Positions 27,400 to 28,360 of a DNA stretch of 32,035 bases are shown one piece after another. Each line of letters opens with the position of its first letter. Within the stretch, counting starts at the first letter, position 1. The notes beneath the pieces were generated by a model that was not told the DNA's origin, did not search any database, and saw nothing but the letters and a program-made list of their open reading frames with translations. The DNA is from Dehalococcoidia bacterium (GTDB taxonomy: Bacteria > Chloroflexota > Dehalococcoidia > Dehalococcoidales > W498): assembly GCA_011191875.1 (NCBI GenBank), contig DUFC01000011.1, positions 1 to 32,035 on the forward strand, read 5' to 3'. A program made the position numbers and the translations under genes.

Positions 27400-28305
27400 T
27401 TATAACACCAATCTTCTGTCTGTTGACCCCAATTTAAATTGCATCCCGGCATGTAAAGGTGAAAACCTTTCTTTAAAGGCAAGATAAAGTTCAACCTGTG
27501 CTTTGAATCCGGTACAGTGACCGGCACTTATCCATGCCACATTCAGCTTAGAGAGTCCCTCAACCGTTCTCTTTATTACAGTACTGGATGCCTCCACGAG
27601 ATGTAATCCACCAATAATACCCTCTATTTTATTGCCGTCAGCTACTTCTATGGCCTGTTTGGCAATGTTAATGATGCCAGCGTGGCTGCAACCGGTAACA
27701 ATCACAAGCCCTTTACCCTTGACATTTGCTATAACAGAAATATCATCAAGCATTAAATCATCAACAATCATTCCGTTCTCTATAGTCTTCAGCCCTATAA
27801 TCGCTTCCTCAAAGTCAGTTCGTCTTTTTACCTCACCGGTTGTCACAATCCCAGGCATAATCACCAAAGGGTCTTTGGTTAGTGACAAACTACCACCAGC
27901 TTTTTCTATCTCCACCTTTGAATCACCTGGCATAATACCTACATGTCTGTGATAGGGTTGAGTAACAAAATGCAGACGGAAGATGCTGGGGTGAGCAATC
28001 ACCTGAACATCCCTCCTGCCAATTTCCTTGAGCATACGCACTATTCCTTGGGTATGGTCATAGTGACAATGTGTTAGCACAATTGTATCAATACTTGTTG
28101 GGGAAATACCCAGGATTCCCATATTGCTGAGCAGAGCCTCGGAATTCTGACCAACATCAACCAGGATTCTGTGTATATTTCCCCCACTCACACCTTCAAG
28201 TAAGAAAGAAACCCCGTGCTGCCCCAAATATGGACTTTCGTAGACTACAGAATCTTCCGCCAGAACTGTAATTCTTAGACTATCTAACGTGCCGAGTTTC
28301 TCTAT
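27400..28305 (-). CDS. Metallo-beta-lactamase-fold hydrolase (COG1237 type), apparently starting at ATA
   Basis: A 301-residue MBL-fold protein of the group that includes the archaeal dihydropterin-ribofuranosyl-aminobenzene phosphate synthase relatives. Metal ligands lie in THCHYDHTQG (His79, His81, Asp83, His84), VTGCSHAGI and SAGHCTGF. The first canonical start (TTG at 28227) falls inside the conserved N-terminus: the upstream codons read LRITVLAEDSVVYESPYLGQ. Upstream of 28227 the frame has no ATG, GTG or TTG before a TAG at 28333-28335. ATA at 28303-28305 with AAGGGGG five bases upstream is the best start. Substrate unknown. Confidence 0.85.
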   Translation of the reverse strand: MEKLGTLDSLRITVLAEDSVVYESPYLGQHGVSFLLEGVSGGNIHRILVDVGQNSEALLSNMGILGISPTSIDTIVLTHCHYDHTQGIVRMLKEIGRRDVQVIAHPSIFRLHFVTQPYHRHVGIMPGDSKVEIEKAGGSLSLTKDPLVIMPGIVTTGEVKRRTDFEEAIIGLKTIENGMIVDDLMLDDISVIANVKGKGLVIVTGCSHAGIINIAKQAIEVADGNKIEGIIGGLHLVEASSTVIKRTVEGLSKLNVAWISAGHCTGFKAQVELYLAFKERFSPLHAGMQFKLGSTDRRLVL

Positions 28306-28327
28306 ATCTGCCCCCTTATGACAAGCA

Positions 28328-28360
28328 GAATGCTACCATAGTCAGGTTATGGTAGCATTC
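28328..28360. terminator. Perfect 13-bp hairpin after livK
   Basis: GAATGCTACCATA (28328-28340) and its exact complement (28348-28360) enclose a 7-base loop. It lies 40 bases past the livK stop and just before the MBL-fold gene's ribosome-binding site. No T-tract follows on the minus strand, so it may be a terminator of the liv operon, an mRNA-stabilising stem, or a regulatory element of the next gene. Confidence 0.45.

Follow-up and report, generated by a model that had tools for sequence, protein, structure and literature searches.

The window, a stretch of 32,035 nt on which all coordinates below are given unless a contig or locus is named, belongs to the MAG G000, from an uncultured relative of Dehalococcoides. 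On its minus strand lies a gene for an MBL-fold hydrolase (28305-27400; 301 codons and a stop when read from ATA), the product of which matches both PF12706 (31.9 bits; curated cut-off 27) and PF00753 (26.7 bits; curated cut-off 22.7). The translation contains HCHYDH, which fits HxHxDH, the metal motif of MBL-fold metallo-hydrolases, and the protein is assigned to that class. The frame is open from an in-frame TAG (28335-28333) to the stop at 27400, and its first canonical start codon is a TTG at 28227-28225; between this TTG and the TAG there is no ATG, GTG or TTG, as the preliminary description of this DNA had reported. The ATA proposed there as the start codon (28305-28303) is also exactly as described, separated by five bases (CAGAT, 28310-28306) from a Shine-Dalgarno sequence, AAGGGGG (28317-28311), and has a Shine-Dalgarno score of 16.8.

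Homologues of this gene were matched in 44 of 61 genomes, and start positions were read at 28 loci among the best 30. Twenty-two homologues, all from other genomes, have a start codon (ATG in 18, GTG in three, CTG in one) located 18 to 22 codons, mostly 19, upstream of the place of TTG 28227, which bears out the earlier claim that the conserved N-terminus extends upstream of that codon; the remaining six loci comprise the gene of the window itself, a homologue whose alignment begins only at codon 27, a partial match and three more distant paralogues. A start at the TTG would drop the conserved N-terminal segment LRITVLAEDS, and was rejected. The homologues can be turned to a different account, in which translation begins at TTG 28227 or at another triplet near LRIT (TTA, CTA or ATT) and the ATA is there by chance, in that most of those outside the genus place their start codon seven codons downstream of the ATA. 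We consider this very unlikely: the TTG sacrifices the conserved segment, the TTA, CTA and ATT triplets are at a distance of some 20 bases or more from the Shine-Dalgarno sequence, and the sister genome G001 has an ATG precisely at the position of the ATA. The homologue in G029 (L027) shows an apparent CTG start after AGGAGG.

G001 (88% complete) is the only genome of the same genus among the 60 relatives listed. The context upstream of the MBL-fold gene is the same as in the window, and the gene itself is present only as a 5' remnant, an open frame of 48 codons, 30 of them from its ATG. The aligned remnant reads ggagatggatATGgaagaactc in G001 against gggggcagatATAgagaaactc in the window, with the window ATA at the G001 ATG, and the start regions, ggagatggatATGgaagaactcagtggg in G001 and gggggcagatATAgagaaactcggcacg in the window, likewise carry ATG and ATA at the identical position; among the sequence comparisons, this correspondence is the most direct evidence for the predicted start. 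Near position 175257 of contig C8 of G001 (L034), where most of the gene is gone, the remnant joins the 3' end of the convergent neighbour. The 88% complete assembly yielded no fuller copy, so that the gene is probably dispensable, and its reduction in G001 raises the prospect that the ATA of the window is a first step of decay in a gene losing its start, the real users of AUA being other genes. Such a history is unlikely in our judgement, given that in the window the frame runs unbroken through 301 codons from the ATA, that its Shine-Dalgarno sequence is good, and that rpsE, mdh and pyrE of G000 show the same pattern.

Of these, mdh, encoding malate dehydrogenase (18844-17885, minus strand), also lies in the window, and we take it to be the first of the two genes without a canonical start to which the preliminary description referred; that claim holds for it as well. 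No canonical start occurs between the upstream TAG and the conserved core, and the proposed start ATA (18844-18842) follows a Shine-Dalgarno sequence, GAGGAG (18857-18852), by seven bases, the latter residing inside the end of the upstream gene icd, which the mdh start overlaps (icd stop TAA, 18839-18837). Read from the ATA, counted as residue 1, the product matches TIGR01763 with 433.6 bits (cut-off 351.85), residues 3-305 falling on profile positions 2-304. In G001, mdh has a TTG after a perfect Shine-Dalgarno sequence and is one codon longer, a comparison of aligned starts that is only approximate. The two window genes thus share a near-cognate codon 5-9 bases downstream of a Shine-Dalgarno sequence (five after AAGGGGG, seven after GAGGAG) and the lack of a canonical start between upstream stop and conserved N-terminus. 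A third ATA (29632-29630, minus strand), in the livF-livK gap, had also been put forward as a start, and we judge that it is not one: the corresponding triplet in G001 is ACA, the frame spans only 13 codons, and no open frame common to both genomes was seen.

The wider occurrence of such starts was assessed by comparing 842,119 bases of G000 (37 contigs, 93.82% complete; 842 of 1,147 kb sampled) with 667,707 bases of G001. The comparison yielded 283 orthologous frames at an identity of at least 55%; 277 of them were assessable in G000 and 283 in G001, and a case was scored where a conserved frame lacked a usable canonical start and a Shine-Dalgarno sequence pointed to a near-cognate codon. In G000 these were rpsE (ATA), mdh (ATA), purM (ATT), rpsU (CTG) and infC (ATA, with ATT as the next codon; the single in-frame TTG upstream lies before the Shine-Dalgarno sequence). 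In G001 they were the fumarate hydratase beta gene fumB (ATA), a sulfhydrogenase-beta-like gene (ATA), purM (ATT), rpsU (CTG) and infC (ATA). Among 266 aligned start pairs no further true exchange of ATG for ATA was present, the single flagged pair having ATG as its next codon. For rpsE of G000, and for fumB and the sulfhydrogenase-beta-like gene of G001, the in-frame TAG was itself considered as a start, on account of the TTG-ATA found in rpsE of four relatives; ATA is preferred because that of the sulfhydrogenase-like gene aligns with a GTG in the other genome. An early procedure for picking starts had flagged 125 of the 277 G000 frames, having selected internal starts or conserved Shine-Dalgarno codons, and was replaced. 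Two further G000 genes have no canonical start near the conserved N-terminus, adk (L093:17881-18576), with a Shine-Dalgarno sequence pointing to GTA, and a dut/dcd-like gene (L055:10944-11468), with one pointing to ACG; both are doubtful and were not counted.

The scan was extended to G045, another genome of the order, of which 390,000 bases were compared. Against it, six of 190 assessed G000 genes were flagged (purM, mdh, rpsE, rpsU, dut and one judged an artefact), as were ten of 151 G001 genes (purM, fumB, mtnA with CTG, rpsU, infC and five judged to be artefacts or to have no settled codon). G045 itself gave four flags among 192 genes against G000 and six among 152 against G001, which include infC (ATA), rnhA (ATT) and a glmM-like gene (ATA), the remaining two and three flags, respectively, being without a settled start codon; the family matches of the sulfhydrogenase-like, glmM-like and rnhA products fall below the cut-offs of the models themselves. 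The same scan applied to the close pair flagged 30 of 295 frames in G000 and 21 of 302 in G001, many of which look like similarity running into conserved upstream sequence, the startless frames also including artefacts and fragments.

An excess of ATA was also apparent without recourse to homology. Here we took frames of at least 130 codons that were the longest over their span and had no ATG, GTG or TTG in the first 20 codons, and compared the identity of codons at Shine-Dalgarno spacing with that of the other codons by Fisher's test, bearing in mind that Shine-Dalgarno-placed codons within one frame are not independent. In the 84 such frames of G000, ATA accounted for 9 of 98 placed codons versus 30 of 1582 others (p = 2.7e-4). 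The nine include both window genes from which the idea arose; exclusion of the window gives 7 of 93 versus 30 of 1507 (p = 0.0044), and the genome-wide excess of ATA at such positions that the preliminary description anticipated is found outside the window also. The corresponding values were 5 of 59 versus 27 of 961 in G001 (51 frames; p = 0.033) and 2 of 14 versus 20 of 766 in G045 (39 frames; p = 0.056). When ATA, ATT, ATC, CTG and ACG were pooled, G000 gave 13 of 98 versus 142 of 1582, which is not significant (p = 0.11), so that the firm excess in this genome is that of ATA alone; the pooled comparison gave p = 0.068 in G001 and 0.030 in G045.

The nine G000 genes are those for the MBL-fold hydrolase, mdh, rpsE, pyrE, ruvX, a Dph6-like ATPase, a flavin reductase and two others, one of 330 codons whose sole match, to SerB, is weak and distant from the start, the other (L091, minus strand) presumably encoding a radical-SAM-like protein, from our reading of its translation. 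The gene infC falls outside this set because of its upstream TTG; its inclusion brings the ATA candidates to ten in 842 kb, which, at an assumed gene density near one per kb, would be roughly 1% of genes. The five placed ATA codons of G001 belong to fumB, the sulfhydrogenase-like gene, infC, a gene for an ATP adenylyltransferase-like HIT protein and one whose product we take to be HisA. Several products match their families from a point beside the ATA: pyrE with residues 4-186 on profile positions 2-186, RuvX with 3-134 on 2-133 and the Dph6-like protein with 3-220 on 2-217. The HIT protein of G001 matches from residue 2 on profile positions 13-170, below the model cut-off. From the ATA to the first canonical codon downstream is a distance of 81 codons in pyrE, 15 in ruvX, 33 in the Dph6-like gene and 14 in the HIT protein gene. 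Shine-Dalgarno sequences point to ATT in hflX of G000 and in a gene of G001 for a probable lipoprotein without a family match; as read from the sequences, other near-cognates appear to be used as well, AUU, AUC and CUG occurring and ACG perhaps so.

Starts of this kind recur in other families of Dehalococcoidales. A purM match was found in 54 of 61 genomes, and many of the closest named relatives to which it led are titled as Dehalococcoidia or Dehalococcoidales MAGs. Its best 30 loci (29 distinct, those of G000 and G001 included) comprise 16 in which the stretch from the upstream stop to the conserved core is free of canonical starts; the start-like codon at Shine-Dalgarno spacing is ATT in 15 of the 16 and ATC in one, at the same aligned position, and it directly follows a TAG in G001, G019 and G044. 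Among 80 named purM loci, which partly repeat the same species, nine of the 79 assessed lack a canonical start (seven ATT, one ATA, one CTG). For mdh, matched in 31 of 61 genomes, four of the best 30 loci have no canonical start whatever: ATA in G000, ATC in G024, and ATA, ATC or CTA in G021 and G053. In G003, G004, G015 and G050, an ATA lies near the mdh start position and a canonical codon further upstream in frame. Of 30 fumB loci, 12 were readable and two were without a canonical start, both with ATA (G050 and G015); the fumB ATA follows an in-frame TAG in G001 and G050. Matches to rpsE occur in 60 of 61 genomes, and within its best 30 loci only that of G000 lacks a canonical start, G001, G006, G020 and G052 having TTG-ATA where G000 reads TAG-ATA. 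The gene infC reads ATA in G000, G001 and G045. From the scan of relatives as a whole, which flagged 188 of 808 frames as startless among the matches listed, only purM, mdh and fumB are used here, many of the flagged frames reading as shadow frames.

The recurrence of the same codons in separate genomes bears on whether errors of sequencing or assembly turned ATG into ATA in this MAG. G000 is an incomplete assembly in 37 contigs, and a single G-to-A error would suffice for the MBL-fold gene; still, the error rate required would be expected to break many frames, and errors would not favour ATA at Shine-Dalgarno spacing. The purM ATT is, moreover, common to both genomes of the genus and to other families, including CP070693 (L272), a record titled chromosome; the rpsU CTG and infC ATA occur in both genomes of the genus, and the fumB ATA in G001 and G050. 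We find error a highly improbable explanation. The suggestion that this lineage tolerates AUA starts is instead supported by the G001 ATG, the ATA excess outside the window, the further named genes, and purM, mdh and fumB in other families.

We therefore regard it as very probable, on the strength of these comparisons of sequence, that the MBL-fold gene is translated from the AUA at 28305-28303 by mismatched fMet initiation, and that about 1% of genes (with ATA) and a few more with AUU, AUC or CUG are read likewise, in other families of the order too. Frames, spacing, alignment and excess are observed; from them we infer initiation with fMet across a third-base mismatch. In the mechanism proposed, an ordinary fMet-tRNA with anticodon CAU would accept AUA with the mismatch at the third codon base, and strong Shine-Dalgarno pairing would keep the 30S complex in place until IF3 proofreading is passed, such that the MBL protein would begin with fMet, at reduced yield; the same initiation would operate at about 1% of G000 genes at ATA, at a few more at AUU, AUC and CUG, and elsewhere in the order. 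At 17 near-cognate sites, two of them doubtful, the median Shine-Dalgarno score is 17 versus 13.4 at canonical starts (p = 3e-5), a difference that is partly a selection effect because Shine-Dalgarno strength helped to pick the sites. IF3 is known to repress non-canonical starts (in the available part of PMC5472188), and weak third-base pairs were disfavoured when codon-anticodon pairs were surveyed in vitro with IF3 (PMC10158994, available part), which fits initiation at low efficiency rather than equal use.

A change in the decoding of AUA itself, either by reassignment to methionine as in animal mitochondria or through an altered initiator tRNA, could be read into the finding that ATG, where it differs between G000 and G001, is most often exchanged with ATA (138 sites). 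Internal ATA, however, is exchanged with ATT and ATC at 316 sites and, because these exchanges predominate, is taken to be isoleucine inside genes; a code with AUA as methionine was rejected on this ground. Reassignment would in addition leave the ATT, ATC and CTG starts unexplained, and the initiator tRNA of G001 has a CAU anticodon and the usual GGG/CCC anticodon stem. We give this possibility next to no weight. An altered IF3 or initiator tRNA, for which the preliminary description had suggested looking, was not seen: the IF3 gene is present in both G000 and G001, its product has an ordinary sequence, most of which can be aligned with solved IF3 chains, and the G001 initiator tRNA is, as described, ordinary too. 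None of the 35 tRNA matches in G000 is an initiator, the single Met-type tRNA among them being presumably elongator-like. In G001 the initiator tRNA gene adjoins the liv genes (C8:170155-170229); the matching place in G000 would, by extrapolation, fall just past the end of the window's contig, at about 32035, and the contig end may account for the missing gene.

Individual genes with such starts are known from other bacteria. In Staphylococcus aureus, according to the part of PMC13009471 available, infC, ccpN and citZ start with AUA behind strong Shine-Dalgarno sequences, and reporters of ccpN, citZ and cvfC1 (AUU) reached about 10% of the yield with AUG when the medium was poor, that of ccpN up to 30% in rich medium. 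The resemblance to the present genes lies in a near-cognate AUN start combined with a strong or extended Shine-Dalgarno sequence; the ccpN start is conserved between species, and citZ, a gene of the TCA cycle, also has AUA, in one strain lineage only. The S. aureus study, in that same part of its text, reports four sites in a genome, which retapamulin profiling supports, with reporters for three, whereas the present candidates, ten with ATA in 842 kb, are known from sequence alone and include metabolic and ribosomal-protein genes. The infC gene starts with AUU in Escherichia coli and ATC in Streptomyces, in connection with IF3 autocontrol, and Streptomyces sigR starts with GTC (PMC5472188, available part). 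The ATA read in infC of G000, G001 and G045 appears to be of the same kind, and the candidates have the architecture of sigR, a conserved non-canonical start with a strong ribosome-binding site; purM, mdh, fumB, rpsE, pyrE and ruvX are outside the cases described in that portion of the paper. In Borrelia burgdorferi, pncA, encoding an essential enzyme, starts with AUU and was truncated in databases because that start was not accepted (PMC13398362, available part); it is a single gene with biochemistry and structure, as against a lineage-wide pattern read here from genomes. For 61,358 ancestral AUG starts in 36 genome groups, a reconstruction reports one switch to AUU and two to CUG (PMC5622118, available part).

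The kind of event is known, and its scale and the conservation in purM, as gauged from these genomes, seem new. Among the matches listed from the open-access literature (titles and abstract openings, with most subscription journals outside), we found none that presents near-cognate starts as characteristic of Dehalococcoidia or Chloroflexota. We lean towards the broader proposal that, in a large part of Dehalococcoidales, AUA serves as a regular fourth start codon in about 1% of genes, including those for a ribosomal protein and core metabolic enzymes, that AUU/AUC is an old, conserved start of purM, and that either start discrimination is relaxed or nucleotide and central metabolism is under an order-wide control linked to IF3. 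If this is true, it would represent natural near-cognate initiation at genome scale, in genes expected to be essential among others, and would make the cost of start-codon proofreading, and what Shine-Dalgarno strength buys back, directly testable. Gene callers that accept no start other than ATG, GTG or TTG would clip, mis-set or miss these proteins, the MBL-fold protein and mdh losing conserved N-terminal segments and pyrE its first 81 residues, and N-termini in this uncultured group would as a result be systematically wrong.

Two minor features concern ATA next to other codons. In genes of G000 and G001 picked with TTG starts, ATA is the commonest second codon, in 5 of 35 families versus 5 of 177 after ATG (Fisher p = 0.013), which could reflect either a dual TTG-AUA start or a common repeat. 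A dispersed repeat, approximately GAGAGGGGGATTAAGGGGGTGAGG-T(T/A)G-ATAAACAA, is present at the 5' ends of a number of genes unrelated to each other, and apparently provides both their Shine-Dalgarno sequence and a TTG-ATA or TAG-ATA start; at other copies only short frames open. At up to eight mismatches, and counted with no shuffled control, there are seven copies in G000, ten in G001 and none in 390 kb of G045. Examples, all on the plus strand, occur in G000 at C22:12119-12151 (L089) and C26:22492 (L132, at a gene that we read as truA-like) and in G001 at C6:107798 (L116) and C8:186259 (L077).
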